From: Syntrophobacteraceae bacterium
GTDB lineage: Bacteria; Desulfobacterota; Syntrophobacteria; Syntrophobacterales; Syntrophobacteraceae
Direction: 5' to 3'
DNA: 58,210 bases
NCBI GenBank assembly: GCA_013314815.1
Contig: JABUEY010000007.1
Span: forward strand, 1-58,210
The notes under the pieces were generated by a model, which did no database searches, had not been told where the DNA came from, and saw only the letters and a program-made list of their open reading frames with translations. Below are positions 9,610 to 19,882 of the stretch, piece by piece. Each line of letters starts with the position of its first letter. Within the stretch, counting starts at the first letter, position 1. The position numbers and the translations under genes are program-made.

Positions 9610-10320
9610 TTACGATATCCCCAGGAAGGGTCGAATCACAAAATAGATGCCCAGCACCCCGATGCAGACTCCCGCGATTTTTCTGAACCACAGGCCGCCT
9701 TCATAAAACGAACTGCTCTCGAGCAGCCGCTTCACGGTGGCCGTCGAACTGCCGGCAACGGCTATGGGGATGCAGTGGCCTACGCCGAAGAGCACGATGA
9801 AGAGAATTCCGGTCACGATCTTCTGCTGAATGGTGATGATGGCAAGAATCGGCGCAATGAAACCGAAGGTGCAGGATCCGGAGAGGATTCCGTACGCCAG
9901 GCCGAGCAGAAAAGCACCGGTGAGCCCCTTGATCTTCATGCGGCTCAGAAGGCCGGTGGACATGGAACATCGGGAGATGCCCAGCATATCGAGAGCCACC
10001 CAGATGAGGATGGCTCCCACGAGTATCGTCCAGTAGGGGCCGATTTCTCCCAACATTCGACCAAGCAGCGAACACACGATGCCTACCAGGGCAATGGTGA
10101 TAAACAGGCCCGTGGTGAACACAACGGCATAGACGGCGGCATGCCTGGCCTGGATCGCCCGATCCTGCCCTGCCACGTAGCTCACGATAAGGGGTATGGA
10201 AGCCATGTGGCAGGGGCTGAAAACCACGCTGATCATTCCCCACAAAAAGCAGCCCAGGGCTGCGACGGCTGTTCCGGTCATCATCCAGGAATGCACCGTA
10301 AGAAAGAGCTGTTCCGGCAT
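9610..10320 (-). CDS. CcdA/DsbD-like thiol transporter (paralogue 1)
   Basis: The 236-residue inner-membrane protein has six predicted membrane helices of the CcdA type. These carry reducing equivalents from cytoplasmic thioredoxin to periplasmic thiol proteins. The two redox cysteines are Cys37 in FSPCHMASIPLIVSY and Cys150 in SGSCTFGFIAPIL. The start at 10320 was chosen over upstream in-frame codons because a GAGGG site precedes it and the mature-like N-terminus matches the second copy at 18.6 kb. A thioredoxin-fold gene lies upstream on the same strand, separated by a repeat element; it is the likely partner. Confidence 0.85.
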   Translation of the reverse strand: MPEQLFLTVHSWMMTGTAVAALGCFLWGMISVVFSPCHMASIPLIVSYVAGQDRAIQARHAAVYAVVFTTGLFITIALVGIVCSLLGRMLGEIGPYWTILVGAILIWVALDMLGISRCSMSTGLLSRMKIKGLTGAFLLGLAYGILSGSCTFGFIAPILAIITIQQKIVTGILFIVLFGVGHCIPIAVAGSSTATVKRLLESSSFYEGGLWFRKIAGVCIGVLGIYFVIRPFLGIS

Positions 10321-10445
10321 TTTGCCCTCTTCGTATTCTGTTTCGGAAATCCGGCAAGAATGCAGCACCCTGCCGGTGATGCGCCGGACGGGAGGCATCC
10401 CGGGCGGAGCGACCAAGGAAAGCTATGGGCTGTTTCAGGTTTATC

Positions 10446-10816
10446 CCGCAAACGAGTACCTCCGGTGCTTTTCACACAACCGATGCTTTTTACCCAGAGG
10501 ATCGATAGCATCACAATGTCGGCATCACAACGTCCCTCCCGCGAAAATCACAACGCCACTTAGCATCAAAACGTCACTTGGCATGAAAACGTCATTCCCG
10601 CGAAAATCTCAACGTCATTCCCGCGAAGGGGAATCCAGTCCAAGCGCAGATCGCGCCATAAAGATCTCTCCACCCTGGTCTGTCTTGCCTATCCAACTTA
10701 TCTTCCCGGCTCTTTCCCGTTTCTTGAGCTGCTCTTAATGACGTTGTCGCGGGAATGACCTTGTTGTGGGTGTATGCCAACTGTGTGCGACCACTGTCCT
10801 CCGGGTACGCGTTTTG
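10446..10816. repeat. Dispersed intergenic repeat, copy 3 (both ends visible)
   Basis: The left end GCAAACGAGTACCTCCGGTG continues with CTTTTCACACAA. The right end is TGTGCGACCACTGTCC ... GGGTACGCGTTTTG. The ends are imperfect inverted repeats of each other. Between them lie irregular repeats of AACGTCATTCCCGCGAAAATC, and then the reverse-oriented ATGACGTTGTCGCGGGAATG. No gene is present. This element fills most of the 10321-10837 gap. Confidence 0.7.
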
Positions 10817-10837
10817 AGAGAAAATGCCGGAAGAACT

Positions 10838-11218
10838 TTATTTCACACCGAGCTGTTCGAGCATGGCGACGATGCTCTTCTTGTCCATGAACCCCACGTG
10901 GCGCGAGACCTCGTTCCCGTCCCTGTCATAAAAGATCTGAGTCGGAATGGCTCGGATCTTGAACCTCGGCGCCTGGTCCTGGTTTTTCCACACATCGATG
11001 AACACGATGGCCGCTTTGCCCTTGTATTCCTCTTTCAACTCATCGAGTATGGGTGCCATCATCTTGCAGGGAATGCACTTGTCGGCTCCCACGTCCACCA
11101 TGGTGACCATGCCCTTGACGGGGACTTCGGGTACGGCATCCGTTTGCACATCGCAAAAAGCGACCCCTGTTCCCGCGATCAGGACAAGCAGAAATGTCAG
11201 CAAGAAAACGCGTTTCAC
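10838..11218 (-). CDS. Exported thioredoxin-fold protein
   Basis: The 126-residue protein has an N-terminal signal peptide (KRVFLLTFLLVLIAGTGVAF) and a thioredoxin fold with the active site CIPC at Cys48 and Cys51. The cis-proline loop IRAIPTQIFYDRDG follows. It should reduce disulfides in the periplasm, receiving electrons from a CcdA-type transporter such as the one encoded just downstream. The same pair (with a damaged thioredoxin) recurs at 18.6-19.9 kb. It ends about 120 bases from the rhodanese gene on the same strand. Confidence 0.85.
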   Translation of the reverse strand: MKRVFLLTFLLVLIAGTGVAFCDVQTDAVPEVPVKGMVTMVDVGADKCIPCKMMAPILDELKEEYKGKAAIVFIDVWKNQDQAPRFKIRAIPTQIFYDRDGNEVSRHVGFMDKKSIVAMLEQLGVK

Positions 11219-11337
11219 TCAGTCCTCCTCTCTGATTGAAACCTGGTCCCTCTATGCCGGGAAAAGTGCAGAATTCCGCACCAATTTCCCGGGCCCAGGA
11301 GTCTTCTCCGGCAGCCGGCTGTCATGGTTCTTCTTGT

Positions 11338-11862
11338 TTATCGAAGGGATGCGCCTTCCAGGGATGTGCTTACAGGCAGCTGATGGTCCTGCCATAAGGT
11401 CCACCCGTTGACGAGGACCTTCACATTGGTGTACCCCTTCTCCATCAGGACCAGGGCGACATCCTTGCTCAGGTTGCATTCTTCCCCGTCGCAGTAGGTG
11501 ATGATCGTCATGCCGGAGGGAATTCCGGCCATGACCTGATCGAAATACTGGTCAAATTCCTCCCACGGCAGATTGCGGGCGCCTTCAATATGACCCAGGG
11601 CATAGAATTCCGGGTCGCGGGCATCCAGGAAGACAGCCGCCCGGGAATGATAGAAAGCCTCTGCCTCCTGCAGGGGGATGGCTATGGTTTCCCCCGATTC
11701 GAGGGTCAACCGTGCCTCGGGGGACCAGTCACCGACAAGGCGAAGTCCTTGGGGGCGGAGTTGATTGAAGGTAACAGCGAACATGCAGGCGATCAGAAGA
11801 ATCAACCCGCATTCCGCTATCGTTCTTAGCCGGATGTCACTGGTCTTCTTGATGACGTTCAT
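11338..11862 (-). CDS. Membrane-anchored rhodanese-domain protein
   Basis: The 174-residue protein has one N-terminal membrane helix (residues about 14-32). A rhodanese domain follows with the typical FLDARDPEFYALGHIEGARN motif and an active-site loop beginning at Cys124 in ITYCDGEECNLS. The loop departs from the usual CxxGxR form, so the sulfur acceptor or substrate may be unusual. The domain probably faces the periplasm. It sits in the thiol-redox gene row between thioredoxin and UspA genes. Function is inferred from the domain only. Confidence 0.8.
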   Translation of the reverse strand: MNVIKKTSDIRLRTIAECGLILLIACMFAVTFNQLRPQGLRLVGDWSPEARLTLESGETIAIPLQEAEAFYHSRAAVFLDARDPEFYALGHIEGARNLPWEEFDQYFDQVMAGIPSGMTIITYCDGEECNLSKDVALVLMEKGYTNVKVLVNGWTLWQDHQLPVSTSLEGASLR

Positions 11863-11937
11863 CCTGTACAGGTATCCTCGTCGAAAGCTGCCTCTGAAAT
11901 CTCGAAAGGCGAACCAGGCCGCCCCTCAGTCCTCCGC

Positions 11938-12036
11938 TCACCCGCCGATGCTGCAAACGCCGCAGGTTGTGGTGTCGCGGCCTGCATTTCCCGCCAGCCC
12001 GTCGAACAGGGCAACAGAAGGCGCCGCCGGGGACAT
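11938..12036 (-). CDS. Possible 32-residue peptide with CGVC motif
   Basis: A short frame starts at ATG 12036 behind an AGAGG site and ends in TTTCGVCSIGG. It fills the gap between the tandem UspA gene and the rhodanese gene. The CxxC near the C-terminus fits the redox neighbourhood, but nothing else supports it. It may be chance. Confidence 0.2.
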   Translation of the reverse strand: MSPAAPSVALFDGLAGNAGRDTTTCGVCSIGG

Positions 12037-12129
12037 ATAGTACGCCTCTTCAGGACTCCGCGCAAGAGTCCTCCCGGCCCCCGCATCAGCACGCCGCGCG
12101 CCTGAGTGCCTGGATCCGAAAAGCAAGGT

Positions 12130-12999
12130 CTACGAACCGGCCCCGGGAATCAACAGGACCGTTCGATCGGCCATTCGCGCCACATTGTAGGCCACGCTGC
12201 CGAGAAGCACCTCCGCGGTGTAGCCCTTTCCGTGGGATCCCAGGAGAATCATGGATACATCTTGCTTTTCCAGGAATCCAAGAATGACGCTGATGGGGTT
12301 CCCTCTGCTCATGTACGTGCTCACTTCCGTCACCCCCGCGACCCTGAGTCGCTTCTCCAGGGCTTCGAAACAGGCCGTGGCCGTCGCCTCCTCTCCTTTT
12401 ACGAAGGAGACGGGCAGGTGTTCGGCCGCCTCCAATGCATGAAGAATGGTCACCTTCTCGATTCCCTTTCCAGCCAGTTCGACGAGGCAGTCCGATGCAC
12501 GATTCGCCGCACTGGAAAAATCGGTGGGGAAGAGGACATGCCTGAGGATGTCGGCGATCTTCAGCTTGCACGTGGCCGTCCCTTCCTCCGCCAGCAGTTC
12601 GACGTTCAGGACAAGAACAGGCACGCGGGAATGATGGAGGACCGCGTTGGATACAGAACCCAGCAAAGCCTGCCGCCACAGCGATCTGCCATGAGAACCG
12701 ACCACGACGAGCGAGGCGCCGTAACCTTGTGCGACATCGTTCAGCGCGAACGCCGGGGCTCCAACGGGCATCTCCACGTGCACTTCGTAACCCATCGACT
12801 CCAGCAGCTTCGACTGAAAGTCGATCTTCTCCCGGGCATCCTCCCTGAGGATGGCTTCCGTCCCACTGAAGAACCTGGCCATAATCACGTGGGTCAGGAT
12901 GATGCGGGAACAACCCAGGTCCCGGAACTCCTCCCCGCAGGCGATGATGTCGTCCCATGCCGGTGACAGGTCCGTTGCCATGACGATCGTCTGAAACAT
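12130..12999 (-). CDS. Tandem universal stress protein (UspA x2)
   Basis: The 289-residue protein holds two UspA domains. The first begins MFQTIVMATDLSPAW and has the ATP-binding loop GSHGRSLWRQALLGS (G-x2-G-x9-G-S). The second has GSHGKGYTAEVLLGS. Both loops are intact, so nucleotide binding is likely. The start at 12999 has AAGGAGG at ideal spacing; upstream in-frame codons are not needed. It lies about 185 bases downstream of acr3 on the same strand, so it may belong to the arsenic-responsive unit. Its precise role is unknown. Confidence 0.88.
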   Translation of the reverse strand: MFQTIVMATDLSPAWDDIIACGEEFRDLGCSRIILTHVIMARFFSGTEAILREDAREKIDFQSKLLESMGYEVHVEMPVGAPAFALNDVAQGYGASLVVVGSHGRSLWRQALLGSVSNAVLHHSRVPVLVLNVELLAEEGTATCKLKIADILRHVLFPTDFSSAANRASDCLVELAGKGIEKVTILHALEAAEHLPVSFVKGEEATATACFEALEKRLRVAGVTEVSTYMSRGNPISVILGFLEKQDVSMILLGSHGKGYTAEVLLGSVAYNVARMADRTVLLIPGAGS

Positions 13000-13184
13000 A
13001 CCCGGCCTCCTTCCGGTCGAATGGCGGTCCTGCCGGACCCTCCCTCTGTTATGGCCCACTGTGCGTGAAATTTCCCCGTATCCTACCGGTACCTGTTTCC
13101 CGCCAGAGATGCAAGCCTTCATCGGGCTCCTCGGTCCGCACCTGCGCGGGGGACGGAACCGCGGGAAAAGTCCACGGCAGTCGG

Positions 13185-14276
13185 CTAGGGCTTACAGGTC
13201 ACATGACAAACGCCCGCGGGAGTCTCCATCACGTGGGGAAAATACCTTCTTTTCAACCACAGAGCCACGTTCACCAGGCTGATGAGCACGGGCACTTCCA
13301 CAAGGGGACCGATCACCGCCGCAAAAGCTTCGCCGGAATGGATTCCGAAAACAGCCACCGCCACCGCAATGGCCAGTTCGAAGTTGTTGGACGCGGCGGT
13401 AAAGCTCAACGTGGTGGTCTGCTCATAAGTCGCTCCCACCTTCATGGAAAGAAAGAACGACACGAAAAACATCACGAAAAAGTAGATGCACAGAGGAATG
13501 GCGATCCGCACCACATCCAGGGGAAGCTGGACGATGTATTCGCCTTTGAGGGAAAACATGACCACGATGGTGAAAAGCAGGGCGATGAGTGTAATGGGAC
13601 TGATCCTGGGGATGAACTTCTCTTCGTACCACTGGCGGCCTTTTATCCTGAGTCCCAGCACACGCGAGAAAATGCCGGCGATGAAGGGAATTCCCAGGTA
13701 GATGAAGACACTCTCCGCGATCTGCCCCATGGATATGTCGACCACTTCACCCGCCATGCCGAACCAGCGTGGAAGTATGGTGATGAAAAAGTAGGCGTAG
13801 ACGGAAAAGAAAAGGACCTGGAAGATGCTGTTGAACGCGACCAGGCCGGCGCAGTATTCGCAGTCTCCCTCCGCCAGGTCGTTCCATACGATGACCATGG
13901 CGATGCATCTGGCCAGGCCGATGAGGATGAGGCCCACCATGTATTCGTGGAATCCGTAGAGGAAGGTCACGGCGAGCGCGAACATCAGGATAGGTCCGAT
14001 GATCCAGTTCTGGACCAGAGACAGGATCAGGACTCTCACGTTTCGGAACACCTGGCCGAGCTGCTCGTATTTCACCTTGGCCAGGGGAGGATACATCATG
14101 AGAATCAGCCCGATGGCGATGGGTATGTTCGTGGTGCCCCATTGGAATACGTGGATCACCTCCCGCAGGCCCGGGTGGAAATAACCCCATCCGACTCCGA
14201 CAGCCATGGCGAGAAAGATCCACAGTGTCAGGAAGCGATCGAGGAAAGAAAGCCTTTTGACAACAGGTTGCATCAT
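13185..14276 (-). CDS. acr3: Arsenite exporter, Acr3 family
   Basis: The 363-residue inner-membrane protein with about ten helices extrudes arsenite. It has the conserved cysteine of helix 4 ([18 protein letters not shown]) and the helix-9 glutamate motif [16 protein letters not shown], both diagnostic of Acr3. The start at 14276 has GGAGGACAGGG directly upstream and overlaps the end of arsC, so the two are coupled. In-frame codons further up lie inside arsC and are unlikely to be used. Together with arsC it forms the core of arsenic detoxification here. Confidence 0.93.
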
Positions 14277-14296
14277 CCCTGTCCTCCAGCCTCGAC

Positions 14297-14746
14297 TCAA
14301 TGCTCTTCATCGAGCACTTCGGGCATCTTTTCCACGAAAGCGCGGATTTCGTCCCTCACCCTGCGATAGTGAACCAGGGCTTCCTCGTCCGTCTTCGCGC
14401 CGGCGGCAAGGCGCGGAGGATCGTCGAAGCCGACATGGAGCAGCCTGGTGCCGGCGGGGAAAACGGGGCAGGATTTCTGGGCGTTGTCACAGAGTGTGAT
14501 AACATAATCGAAGTGCATGTCCTCGAGAGTGTCCAGGTGAGTGGATGCCTGACCGGAGATGTCGACACCCGCTTCGGCCATCACTTGCACTGCCCTCGGG
14601 TCGACTCCGCGGGGTGAAACGCCTGCCGACCAGGGTTCGACAAGATCTCCCTTCAAATGCCTGGCCCAGCCTTCCGCCATCTGGCTGCGGCATGCGTTCC
14701 CGGTGCACAGAAAAAGAACCTTGAGTCTGCCTGTTTTCATCTCCAT
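14297..14746 (-). CDS. arsC: Arsenate reductase, thioredoxin-coupled low-molecular-weight phosphatase type
   Basis: The 149-residue enzyme reduces arsenate to arsenite. The nucleophile loop is CTGNACRSQ at Cys14. Cys86 and Cys93 in [16 protein letters not shown] complete the triple-cysteine relay, and their spacing (72 and 7 residues) equals that of the Staphylococcus aureus enzyme, which is recycled by thioredoxin. The general-acid loop DDPPR is present. A second ATG two codons later is an alternative start. It overlaps acr3, and the arsenite product would pass to that exporter. Confidence 0.93.
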
Positions 14747-14881
14747 GCTCTTTCATTACAGGTCGGCTCCACGGCGGCCGGGTTGGAAATCCGGCCGACA
14801 TTCGAACCCCCGGAACAGCTGAGAATTCTGATGATGCTTTCAGAAACGCAACAATCCCCCGTCATGATTTCCACCCTCTGA

Positions 14882-15121
14882 CTATGACGCACTGCGGATC
14901 CAGGACACCACTTCTTCCTTTTTCGGGATCTTGCCCACTGACTTCACTTCACCGTTTACCACGACTGCCGGAGTTCCAAAAACTCCGTAGCCGGCAATGT
15001 CCAGGATGTTGGTCACCTTTTCGACCTTTGCATCGACTCCGCTTTCCTCTACGGCTTCCCTGACCACCTTCTCCGTTTCATGGCATTTGGGGCAACCCGG
15101 ACCGAGCACCTTGACTTCCAT
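14882..15121 (-). CDS. Small redox-active disulfide protein (thioredoxin-like)
   Basis: The 79-residue protein starts MEVKVLGPGCPKC, with the dithiol at Cys10 and Cys13. The cis-proline region is FGTPAVVVNGEV. It is a minimal thioredoxin/glutaredoxin-like fold of the type often encoded beside UPF0718 permeases. AAGGAG lies 8 bases ahead of the ATG. It sits between the permease and arsC. It may deliver electrons to ArsC or handle thiol-bound metalloids, which is inference. Confidence 0.85.
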   Translation of the reverse strand: MEVKVLGPGCPKCHETEKVVREAVEESGVDAKVEKVTNILDIAGYGVFGTPAVVVNGEVKSVGKIPKKEEVVSWIRSAS

Positions 15122-15231
15122 CGCTTTCTCCTTCCGTTCCTCCATCGGCGTAGTTCCAACCGTGGAGTCTCAAAATCATGCGCACGGAAACATTGCGCAA
15201 TGGCGGCAGGCTTCCGGCTGCATGTATAATC

Positions 15232-16404
15232 TTAGCCCATAAGCGTCCCATAAACCATGCCCGCCAGTGTCGACAGGGCGACGATAATGACCACAAACAC
15301 GGCAGTCTTCTTTGCCCCCATGATCCCGGCGATGACCAGCATGTTGGGCAAAGACAGCGCCGGACCGGCAAGAAGCAGCGAAAGCGCGGGGCCCTTGCCC
15401 ATTCCGGCGCCTATCAGCCCCTGGAGGATGGGGACTTCGGTAAGGGTGGCGAAATACATGACCGCCCCCGACACAGCGGCGAAAAGATTGGCCCACAGCG
15501 AGTTGCCGCCCACAAGAGTCTGGATGTATCTTTCGGGTATCAGGGCTTCGTGCCCGGGGCGTCCCAGAAGGAAACCGGCGACCAGGACTCCCCCCGCAAG
15601 AAGGGGAAGGATCTGCTTCATGAAGACCCAGGTGGATCCGACCCAGTTGGTCAGTTCGTCGCGGGTGAACCATGCCTTGAGCATCACGCCCAGCAGCACC
15701 AGCAGCATCGCCGTGATGTACCATTTAGCTCCAAAAAGGACGCTCCATATTCCATGGTCGTCGGCCGACGGCCTGGCGAAGGCGGCAAAAACGAGAACGA
15801 GCACCATGGTCAGCATGTAAAGGCCGTCCTGCAGAAGAGAACGCCCCCTGTCGTCCTCGTCAGGAACATAGATCTGCCCGGCGGTCCGGTTCAGATCGTC
15901 ATGGCGAAAAACCAGGGCCATCAGCAGGCCGGTGACGACGGCGAAAACGACGGCCCCGATCGCACGTGCCAGGCCGAGTTCCCAGCCGAGGATCCTGGCG
16001 GTGAGGACAATGGCCAGGACATTGATGGCCGGGCCCGAATAAAGGAATGCCGTTGCCGGCCCGATTCCCGCTCCCCGGGTGAATATGCCTGCGAAGAGCG
16101 GCAGTACCGTACACGAGCAGACGGCCAGGACCGTTCCGGAAACGGAGGCCACCGAATACGAAAGAAACTTGTTGGCAGTAGCACCGAAGTACTTCAGGAC
16201 GGAGGCCTGGGAAACGAAGACGGATATCGCCCCGGCGATGAAGAATGCGGGTATCAGGCAGGTGAGAACATGTTCCCGGGCATATTCCTGGAGCATCATG
16301 AAGGCTTCGAGACCGGACCTTCGAATGACGGCACTTTCCCAGGGCACAAAATAGCAGGCCAGGTAGACCAGGATGAAGAGCAGCATCTTGCTGAGTTCTC
16401 TCAT
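15232..16404 (-). CDS. UPF0718 (DUF318, ArsP-like) permease
   Basis: The 390-residue membrane protein has two halves of about four helices, each with a conserved motif. The first has AVCSCTVLPLFAGIFTRGAG with a paired cysteine; the second has MYFATLTEVPILQGLIGAGMGKG. This matches the UPF0718/ArsP permease family, some members of which export trivalent organoarsenicals. The ATG at 16404 overlaps the preceding stop as ATGA, so it is translationally coupled to the dithiol protein. An arsenic or organoarsenic role is supported by the Acr3/ArsC context, not by direct evidence. Confidence 0.85.
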   Translation of the reverse strand: MRELSKMLLFILVYLACYFVPWESAVIRRSGLEAFMMLQEYAREHVLTCLIPAFFIAGAISVFVSQASVLKYFGATANKFLSYSVASVSGTVLAVCSCTVLPLFAGIFTRGAGIGPATAFLYSGPAINVLAIVLTARILGWELGLARAIGAVVFAVVTGLLMALVFRHDDLNRTAGQIYVPDEDDRGRSLLQDGLYMLTMVLVLVFAAFARPSADDHGIWSVLFGAKWYITAMLLVLLGVMLKAWFTRDELTNWVGSTWVFMKQILPLLAGGVLVAGFLLGRPGHEALIPERYIQTLVGGNSLWANLFAAVSGAVMYFATLTEVPILQGLIGAGMGKGPALSLLLAGPALSLPNMLVIAGIMGAKKTAVFVVIIVALSTLAGMVYGTLMG

Positions 16405-16931
16405 GAAGCCGCACCTTCCCCGCCTGCAGCTGCTTTTGCGGCGGCTTCGGTCAGCCACCGCCTGATCTTGTCCCTCGACGGAATATTCCCGACTGCCATC
16501 ACCTTGCCGTTGATCAGCAGGGCAGGTGTCCCCATCACTCCAAACCGGGCAATCTCCTTGATGTCCCTTACGTGGTCGACGCTGGCAGCTATCCGGGTCT
16601 CCGTCAGCACCTCCATGATCGTCTGTTCAAACCTGTCACATTGAGCACAACCCGGCCCCAGCACCTTGATGTCGATCCCGCCGCCCTGCTCCTCCTCGAA
16701 AGGCTGCCCCAGGAAGCGGCGGAATTCCTTAACGAAGGCTCTGCCGTATTCTTCCCTTGCGGTTCGGGGTATGTAATTGTCTTTGCCCAAACGGTCCAGC
16801 AGGATGCCTTGAACAGTTTCATCCGCTTCGCTGCCGTGAGTTGCCGCAATCTCCTCCATGGCTTGCTTCAACCCGATGATGCCGATGGAGTGCTTCCCAA
16901 CTTTGATCATGGTTGTATCTTTGTCGGTCAC
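16401..16931 (-). CDS. Dithiol (thioredoxin-like) protein with extra N-terminal domain
   Basis: The 176-residue protein combines an N-terminal helical region of about 80 residues with a C-terminal small thioredoxin-like domain, IDIKVLGPGCAQC (Cys95, Cys98), and the cis-proline loop MGTPALLINGKV. The N-terminal part occurs in related permease-linked proteins but has no assigned function. It is the first gene of the arsenic unit. GTG at 16931 is preferred because GGAGGAGGGG lies upstream, while the ATG at 16910 lacks a ribosome site. The coupling to the permease gene suggests that the two proteins act together. Confidence 0.8.
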   Translation of the reverse strand: MTDKDTTMIKVGKHSIGIIGLKQAMEEIAATHGSEADETVQGILLDRLGKDNYIPRTAREEYGRAFVKEFRRFLGQPFEEEQGGGIDIKVLGPGCAQCDRFEQTIMEVLTETRIAASVDHVRDIKEIARFGVMGTPALLINGKVMAVGNIPSRDKIRRWLTEAAAKAAAGGEGAAS

Positions 16932-17352: not shown

Positions 17353-18402
17353 TCATTTTGCAGGGTTGTTCATGATATACACCTGCACTTCCTGCATTTC
17401 TTCGCCTGGGACATCTGTCTCCACGCCCAAGACGGTCTGCTGTCTTGCACCCGTTTGAATCGCTTCCATCCTGGGTGTGATATCCAGTGAAAGGCCGTCT
17501 TCATTGGGCAGGGCTTCCTGGTTAACGGCAATCAGTGTATCATCGTAGGAAAGCTTTCTGATCTTGAATGGCTTGTCGCTGTTGCTCGTAATGATCACTT
17601 TGCCGGATCGGACGGGCTGTTGTTCCGCTACCTTTCCGATGAGCACCGACATGGGACGCACGGAGATCAGGGACTCGATGTGAGCGCTTACCCGCAGAGC
17701 GATCTGCGGTTTCTTCTCCATGTCCGTGTGGAGTGTGAGGATGCCGCTGTAGGTTCCCTGTCTCACTCTATTGGCAACTCGAAGCCGGTAATGATATCCG
17801 TCTTTGACCGTATCCAGCCGCATCTGCACCTTTTCTTCCAGGTTGCTTTCGATCTTTGAGATATGGAACGGCCGATCGGCGGCTTTGAGCTCGACTATGC
17901 TCTCTGCAACCGTTTCCGCTGCTCCCCTGAAGGAAATGCTGTTTCCGGGACGGATATGCAGCAGGGGGTCAACGATCCCGTTCAGCGAAATGACCACCCT
18001 GCTGTTCTCCGGATCATTGCTGAGGACCGTTGCTGTTTTCGAAACTTTTCCCTGATAGTCAGTAAGATCGACCCTAAGAGTGATTTTCCCCTCGCCTCCG
18101 GGAGGGATGGCCCGATCAAAATGAGCCACCGCGCACCCTCAGCCGGGCCGCACTTGGTGAATGATCAGCGGTGCGGTTCCCTTGTTGAGGACCGCGAACT
18201 CATGCGACACCTTACTCCCCTCGTCCGCATGTCCAAAGTCGACTTTGCTCCGAGGGATTTGCAAGGAGGGTGCCTGCTTATCCGTAACAGCCGAATAGGA
18301 TGTATGGGATGGGTCTTCCGAAGCATGGCCAGGGTGGCCGGGAAAAAGCCATACGAACTGCCACAGGACCAGTACCAATATTGACCCAAAAAGTGGATTC
18401 AT
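17353..18402 (-). CDS. Exported DUF1573-like protein, candidate selenoprotein (in-frame TGA)
   Basis: One continuous frame of 350 codons is broken only by TGA at 18141-18139 (codon 88). Before it lie an AAGGAG-supported ATG at 18402, a signal peptide (residues about 3-25), and a DUF1573-type start (KVDFGHADEGSKVSHEFAVLNKG). After it come GCAVAHFD, IPPGGEGKI and VLSNDPENSRVVISLNG, all typical of the family. The family usually has a Cys-Gly-Cys motif here, so TGA replaces the first cysteine, giving Sec-Gly-Cys. A 39-base hairpin can form immediately after the TGA. The C-terminal half looks like further immunoglobulin-like strands. The neighbours CcdA and thioredoxin could reduce it in the periplasm. 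The alternative is a nonsense mutation, with a GTG restart at 18129. Confidence 0.65.
18102..18140 (-). promoter_or_regulatory. Candidate bacterial SECIS hairpin
   Basis: In the mRNA directly after the UGA, GGUGGCUC (18130-18123) pairs with GGGCCAUC (18113-18106) over 8 pairs, including G-U wobbles. GAGG (18140-18137) pairs with CCUC (18105-18102). The apical loop is AUUUUGAUC, about 18 bases from the UGA. Distance and size fit bacterial SECIS elements, but the loop does not begin with the preferred G. Confidence 0.4.
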
Positions 18403-18559: not shown

Positions 18560-19270
18560 TTATGAACTCCCGAGAAAGGGCCGAACAACGAAATAAAGCC
18601 CCAGTGCTCCTATGCCAGCTCCCGCGAGCTTGCGGAACCAGAGTCCTCCCTCGTGGAAGGAACTACTCGACAGAAGCCTCCTTACCGTTGCGGTGGAACT
18701 TCCCGCCAGCGCAATGGGGACACAGTGCCCTATGCCGAAAAGGACGATGAACGCAATACCCGTCATGATTTTTTGTTGAATCGTTATGATGGCGAGGATG
18801 GGAGCGATAAAGCCGAAGGTGCAGGAACCGGAGAGCACTCCATAAGCCAGGCCCAGGATGAAGGCGCCCGGAAGTCCCTTGATGCGGATACGGTTCAGCA
18901 GGCCACCGGGCATGGAACACTTGGCCACGCCGAGCATGTCCATGGACACCCAGATCAGAATCGCGCCCACGACGATCGTCCAGTAGGGACCGACTTCACC
19001 AAGCATGCGACCAAGAGCCGCACAGACGATGCCGACGAGGGCAATGGTTATGAACAGGCCGACGGTGAAAGCCACGGCGTAATGGGCGGCGATTTTTGCC
19101 TTGAGAGCCCTGTCCTGGCCTGCAACATAGCTCACAATAAGGGGGATGGCCGCCAGGTGGCACGGGCTGAAAGCGACGCTGATCATGCCCCACAGGAAGC
19201 ATCCGAGAGCTGCAATGGCCGTCCCGCCCATCATCCAAGAATTCACCGTAATGAAGAGCTCCTCCAACAC
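18560..19270 (-). CDS. CcdA/DsbD-like thiol transporter (paralogue 2)
   Basis: This 236-residue membrane protein is a close paralogue of the one at 9.6-10.3 kb, with the same length and the same ending RPFLG. The redox cysteines lie in FSPCHLAAIPLIVSY and SGSCTFGFIAPIL. It moves electrons from the cytoplasm to periplasmic thiols. The GTG at 19270 was chosen because GGAGG stands 9 bases upstream and the N-terminus then aligns with the first copy. It lies between a damaged thioredoxin gene and the candidate selenoprotein gene, its probable client, all on one strand. Confidence 0.83.
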   Translation of the reverse strand: MLEELFITVNSWMMGGTAIAALGCFLWGMISVAFSPCHLAAIPLIVSYVAGQDRALKAKIAAHYAVAFTVGLFITIALVGIVCAALGRMLGEVGPYWTIVVGAILIWVSMDMLGVAKCSMPGGLLNRIRIKGLPGAFILGLAYGVLSGSCTFGFIAPILAIITIQQKIMTGIAFIVLFGIGHCVPIALAGSSTATVRRLLSSSSFHEGGLWFRKLAGAGIGALGLYFVVRPFLGSS

Positions 19271-19505
19271 TATTCTTCCCTCCTCAGCAAGTTCATTCCA
19301 GGCATCCTTGGCTGTCGGTACCCGATTTCCGACAAAACACTTCCACTTACAACCGCTCAAGCACCATGGATCATCGGCGGAGAACCGGTGTCAGTTGCAG
19401 GGACTTCTTTCGTGGAATACCGTCCCTGACGTCTGCATTCTGAAACGCGTTCGTACGAAGATCGAAGTGAAGCCCCGCTCGAAAAGATTTCCTGCCGAAC
19501 TTTTT

Positions 19506-19882
19506 TTAACCGGTTCCTAGCCGTGTCAGCACATCGATGATGGTTTGCCTGTCCATGTAACCTTCATGGCGCAAGACCTCCTTTCCCTCCTTGTCATAGA
19601 AAACCTGTGTCGGGATGGCGCGTATTCCTTTGCTGCGCGCCAGTTCACGCTCTTTCCGGACATCGATAAAACGATTGCGGCCCTGCCTTTGTATTTCTGC
19701 CCCAGTTTCTTCAGAACAGGCGCCATCATTTTGCACGGAATGCAGCTTTCTGCTCCAAAGTCGACCATGGTCACCATCCCTTTCACTGGAATGTTCGATG
19801 GACTTTCGGAAGTTTTCTGAACCCCGCAGGCTGTAATAAGTAATATCACGGAGGCCGCCAGAGCATGGGTCCGGAGCTTCAA
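19506..19882 (-). pseudogene. Exported thioredoxin-fold lipoprotein, frameshifted
   Basis: The 5' part encodes a lipoprotein signal (VILLITAC, lipobox cysteine near residue 19) and a thioredoxin domain with CIPC. After GRAAIV the reading frame is lost at a run of four A/T bases (19668-19671). The next frame continues the homology with FIDVRKERELA, IRAIPTQVFYDKEG and GYMDRQTIID to a stop at 19506. Restoring one T to the run would join the halves into a protein like the intact paralogue at 10.8 kb. It is either a recent one-base deletion or a sequencing error. A natural truncated product would lack the cis-proline and be inactive. Confidence 0.75.

Follow-up and report, generated by a model that had tools for sequence, protein, structure and literature searches.

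An in-frame UGA in a DUF1573-family gene of a Syntrophobacteraceae bacterium is very probably decoded as selenocysteine

The gene at 17353..18402 (minus strand) of the window, a stretch of 58,210 nucleotides of contig JABUEY010000007.1 from a Syntrophobacteraceae bacterium, is interrupted by a TGA at 18139..18141. This raises the question of whether the codon is a lesion or is translated, and, if it is translated, what the resulting protein might do. The frame runs from an ATG at 18402-18400 to a terminal TGA at 17355-17353 and encodes 349 residues plus the stop, with TGA 18141-18139 (codon 88) as its sole interruption. The original prediction had described such a frame, leaving its strand unstated, and had credited it with a good start site and a signal peptide. 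Both are seen here, as AAGGAGA lies directly 5' of the ATG and the N-terminus is of the signal type, with a hydrophobic segment modelled as a helix at residues 4-19. The only Cys or Sec residues in the product would be U88 and C90, in the motif Sec-Gly-Cys (U88-G89-C90).

The predicted DUF1573 assignment also holds. The Pfam match (PF07610) spans the TGA, covering residues 49-143 (E 4e-22, 78.5 bits against a gathering cut-off of 26.1), and the NCBIfam model NF041425, "OS_HP2 family (seleno)protein", matches with 106.6 bits against a curated cut-off of 100. One homologue, itself with exactly one TGA, can be aligned across residues 1-346 at 50% identity. Because the domain match crosses the TGA and this alignment extends far beyond it, the sequence 3' of the TGA can be read as genuine family protein, consistent with the family-typical sequence predicted on both sides. 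A scan of the window for other TGA read-through frames returned many frames.

Homologues were sought in 98 genomes, comprising the genome itself and its relatives, and were present in 62. Among 110 aligned homologues the codon at this site is TGA in 88, TGC in 17, TGT in two, and ACA, TCA and TGG in one each, so that 107 of the 110 would carry Sec or Cys. The original prediction had placed the TGA at the first Cys of a family Cys-Gly-Cys motif and had named an alignment of homologues as the check, and the 19 Cys codons alongside the 88 TGA codons agree with it. Given this distribution, the in-frame TGA is not a chance occurrence. Most long homologues have exactly one in-frame TGA, and a public-genome scan by protein yielded a single relative, L047, in which the codon is TGC. 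The same counts bear on the proposal that the TGA arose by nonsense mutation or sequencing error in a Cys-type gene. The assembly is fragmented (245 contigs) and the adjoining thioredoxin gene is frameshifted, which would favour an artefact, but past the TGA the reading frame is conserved, and a covarying hairpin lies there (see below). Since the TGA recurs in 88 homologues, in many independent assemblies and in five genes of this genome, a pseudogene or error is refuted, and its probability is close to nil.

The putative SECIS hairpin lies at 18106..18130 (minus strand) and has an 8-bp stem (GGUGGCUC/GGGCCAUC), a 9-nt loop (AUUUUGAUC), 16 nt from the UGA to the loop, and an energy of -11.5 kcal/mol. 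These values fall within the size and energy ranges of the bSECIS model, which specifies a loop of 3-9 nt, an upper stem of 4-16 bp, a spacing of 16-37 nt and an energy of -7.5 kcal/mol or lower (PMC13188914). The model further asks for a G within the first two loop positions, although some bSECIS elements fail it (PMC13188914). That G is present in 46 of 76 UGA homologues and absent from the first two positions of the window loop, and the hairpin is for this reason graded as SECIS-like and not as a canonical bSECIS element. Scanning the window against Rfam, with gathering thresholds, gave no match. Folded singly, the sequence 3' of the UGA was uninformative (z 0.16, which does not beat shuffles, and z -0.82); the significance of the hairpin comes only from comparison across homologues.

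For this comparison, pairing in a 7-bp core was counted in 76 distinct TGA rows and set against 2000 shuffles of synonymous codons within columns. Pairing was found in 448 of 532 cells, against 417.6 +/- 4.1 in the shuffles, and 0/2000 shuffles reached 448, a figure whose exact significance is overstated since codon shuffling ignores relatedness. The third base pair is G-C in 22 rows, C-G in 17 and U-A in 14. Pairing falls to 31-46% when the stem is slid along the alignment, and is 50% in the non-TGA rows. Judged from the alignment, compensatory changes in the hairpin exceed those expected from synonymous shuffling, and the hairpin is weak in the Cys forms. A hairpin of suitable size had been predicted to follow the TGA, and the element found here also covaries across homologues.

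The genome is equipped to decode the codon. It has a tRNA-Sec with anticodon UCA and matches to SelB (382 bits), SelA (511 bits) and SelD (400 bits). The selA gene is split over two contig ends, and the two pieces probably represent one gene. There are two selD genes, one of which (contig C33:38009-38932, L051) has a single in-frame TGA, and SelD may itself be a selenoprotein in this organism. The original prediction had called for a search for selA, selB, selC and selD and had regarded a lack of selB or selC, or of homologues with Cys at the site, as telling against it; all four genes are present, and homologues with Cys exist. SelB is found in nearly all of the relatives, and its presence therefore cannot test the split between Sec and Cys forms. 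A SelB match at E <= 1e-40 was not found in three genomes with UGA copies (G022, G064 and G067), possibly due to assembly gaps, since EF-Tu matches seen elsewhere are missing from these genomes too.

A SelC-like tRNA-Cys lies near a second selB-like gene on contig C208 (L002, 1020-1108, and L010, 1483-3450), an arrangement like that of the published selC*/selB* system, some members of which have a UCA anticodon (PMC7609411). This pair would be a candidate if UGA were translated as cysteine or another amino acid. The anticodon of the C208 tRNA is GCA, however, and the only UCA tRNA found, among tRNAs from 44 tRNA-family matches and the SelC matches, is tRNA-Sec. Decoding by selC* is rejected here on account of the GCA anticodon, and translation as an amino acid other than Sec is very improbable. 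The conserved UGA, its replacement by Cys, the covarying hairpin and the complete machinery together support Sec decoding of codon 88 in an exported OS_HP2/DUF1573 protein, to which we give a probability of about 95%. The standard SelA/SelB/SelC/SelD system would be directed to the codon by the hairpin, with its 16-nt spacing from UGA to loop.

The expectation of novelty for a selenothiol in this family was not upheld. A "DUF1573 domain-containing protein" (PF07610, motif UGC) is a listed selenoprotein, in reviews that trace the family to Zhang and Gladyshev 2007 (PMC9312934, PMC13188914), OS_HP2 (pfam07610, UxC) is listed for ocean samples (PMC2398784), and NF041425 is named for the family. 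The gene is thus a well-supported additional member of a selenoprotein family listed since 2007, with which it shares both the domain and the Sec-Gly-Cys motif. No function for the OS_HP2/DUF1573 family was described in the literature searched. NF041425 models a 98-residue first domain only, whereas the window protein adds about 200 residues forming two further Ig-like domains in the structure model, and its gene is linked to genes for a thioredoxin and a CcdA-type protein. In a narrow literature search, neither this long three-domain form nor the two operon settings described below were met.

The full-length model (pLDDT 91.4) has three tandem beta domains. The first, an Ig-like (ASH/PapD-like) domain at 17962..18273 (minus strand; residues 44-147), contains the DUF1573 match and bears the UGC site, which lies between strands 79-86 and 90-95. 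The C-terminal region (17356..17961, minus strand; residues 148-349) has no Pfam match, and the model folds it into a further two Ig-like domains. Modelled alone, domain 1 (pLDDT 95.1) keeps the ASH/PapD-like Ig fold. Its best structure matches include 2qsv (Z 13.6), VesC 6bqm (Z 12.1), VesB 4lk4 (Z 11.9) and HYDIN 2ys4 (Z 10.8), and the nearest of these, 2qsv from Porphyromonas gingivalis, superposes at 1.6 A over 99 residues with 19% identity. A PDB sequence search gave no match. The structure matches, obtained from a model, inform on fold and not on function. CsgC and the N-terminal domain of DsbD (nDsbD) are periplasmic Ig-like domains in which two redox-active cysteines lie close together, as CxC in the case of CsgC (PMC3173608). 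The window protein resembles them in having a close pair on an Ig-like domain, with Sec where they have the first Cys, but no sequence match links them and neither is among the structure matches listed.

The pair is kept throughout the long form, as all 51 long TGA homologues have Sec-Gly-Cys. Only 9 of the 37 short TGA homologues have it, and most of the others read Sec-Gly-Ser or Sec-Gly-Thr. Among these short, one-domain paralogues (L056, L057 and others) the Cys two residues past the Sec is thus mostly absent, and the Sec-Cys pair is therefore not essential to the whole family. The UGS and UGT sequences suggest a lone-Sec chemistry in the short paralogues.

Two genomic settings are seen. 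In about 25 of 42 loci the genes directly 5' of the DUF1573 gene encode an S41 protease of the CtpA type and a divergent polysaccharide deacetylase, and the pair is often preceded by an M23 peptidase gene. In the relatives the DUF1573 gene is usually the last of this M23/CtpA/deacetylase operon. The copy on contig C36 of the same genome is of this type. The window copy is part of a different gene set. A DsbD_TM/CcdA-type membrane protein (18560..19360, minus strand; PF02683, E 5.4e-16) is encoded directly 5' of the selenoprotein gene and recurs in three relatives, and a lipoprotein-type thioredoxin with a CIPC motif (19526..19882, minus strand) is the first gene of the set. The frame of this thioredoxin shifts mid-gene in the assembly, and the relatives' copy is intact. 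The thioredoxin-CcdA-DUF1573 order is found in the window and in the genomes G010, G006 (in which DUF1573 has the Cys form) and G016. The thioredoxins of these sets have lipobox-like N-termini, and the CcdA-type proteins have conserved cysteines.

The commonest setting raises the possibility that the protein, although a selenoprotein, serves chiefly as an Ig scaffold of the envelope, structural or chaperone-like, that works with the CtpA-type protease and the deacetylase, its Sec or Cys only tuning or protecting it. Some of the nearest solved folds, which are ASH/PapD-like and MSP domains, are periplasmic chaperones. Orthologues have also been kept in genus g4 (L037 and L044) despite Thr (ACA) or Ser (TCA) in place of Sec; both lie in the CtpA/deacetylase operon, in genomes that retain SelB, and L044 has lost the second Cys as well. 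Nonetheless, 107 of the 110 homologues have Sec or Cys, which suggests chemistry over scaffolding in nearly all of them, and a mainly structural role is unlikely.

A second alternative accepts Sec decoding and assigns the Sec-Gly-Cys site to the binding of metals or metalloids (Hg, Cu or As), with no thiol exchange, the protein then being a periplasmic factor for metal binding or resistance. Chemically, a selenol paired with a thiol is well suited to soft metals. An RND efflux set lies 5' in the same orientation, an RND pump gene being found 5' of the thioredoxin-CcdA-DUF1573 set both in the window and in G010, and the region has acr3 (460 bits), a candidate arsC of the LMW-phosphatase type and an ArsP-type permease. 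These arsenic-type genes cluster at 9610-16931 of the window with ArsE-like thioredoxins, and the same interval encodes a second CcdA-type and thioredoxin pair and a rhodanese. The roughly 25 CtpA/deacetylase loci, however, include no metal genes among their identified members, and the thioredoxin-CcdA linkage is shared by three further genomes, in one of which DUF1573 has the Cys form. Metal binding as the main function is about as doubtful as the scaffold role.

The explanation we prefer is that the protein is a selenium-dependent partner in periplasmic thiol exchange. The Sec-Cys pair, carried on the first of the three Ig-like domains, would cycle between selenol/thiol and selenenylsulfide and would exchange with disulfides of periplasmic client proteins. 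At the window locus its reduced state would be restored by way of the neighboring lipoprotein thioredoxin and the DsbD_TM/CcdA-type protein, which is the likely electron donor pathway. The likeness to the DsbD pathway lies in a DsbD_TM protein, a periplasmic-type thioredoxin and an Ig-like domain with a close Cys/Sec pair that are encoded side by side; the differences are that the window has three separate genes and that the Ig-like part is of the DUF1573/ASH type. A split DsbD-like pathway is inferred because a Sec-Cys site has thioredoxin and CcdA-type neighbors, the exchange and electron supply being predicted from gene order and motif. The operon around the gene in most relatives is a cell-envelope one with neither thioredoxin nor CcdA, and the electron route would therefore be specific, at best, to the window-type paralogue set. 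Taken as a whole, from Sec decoding through thiol exchange to re-reduction, this proposal seems slightly better than an even bet.

Starting points for studying a periplasmic selenothiol role of the family are provided by the covarying hairpin and the two conserved contexts, together with a long form that keeps UGC and a short form that mostly lacks the second Cys. More tentatively, the lipoprotein thioredoxin, the CcdA-type protein and the Sec-Cys Ig protein might form a split, selenium-using DsbD that carries electrons across the membrane to periplasmic clients, and its sister protein in the CtpA/deacetylase operon might let selenium chemistry feed into cell-wall remodelling.
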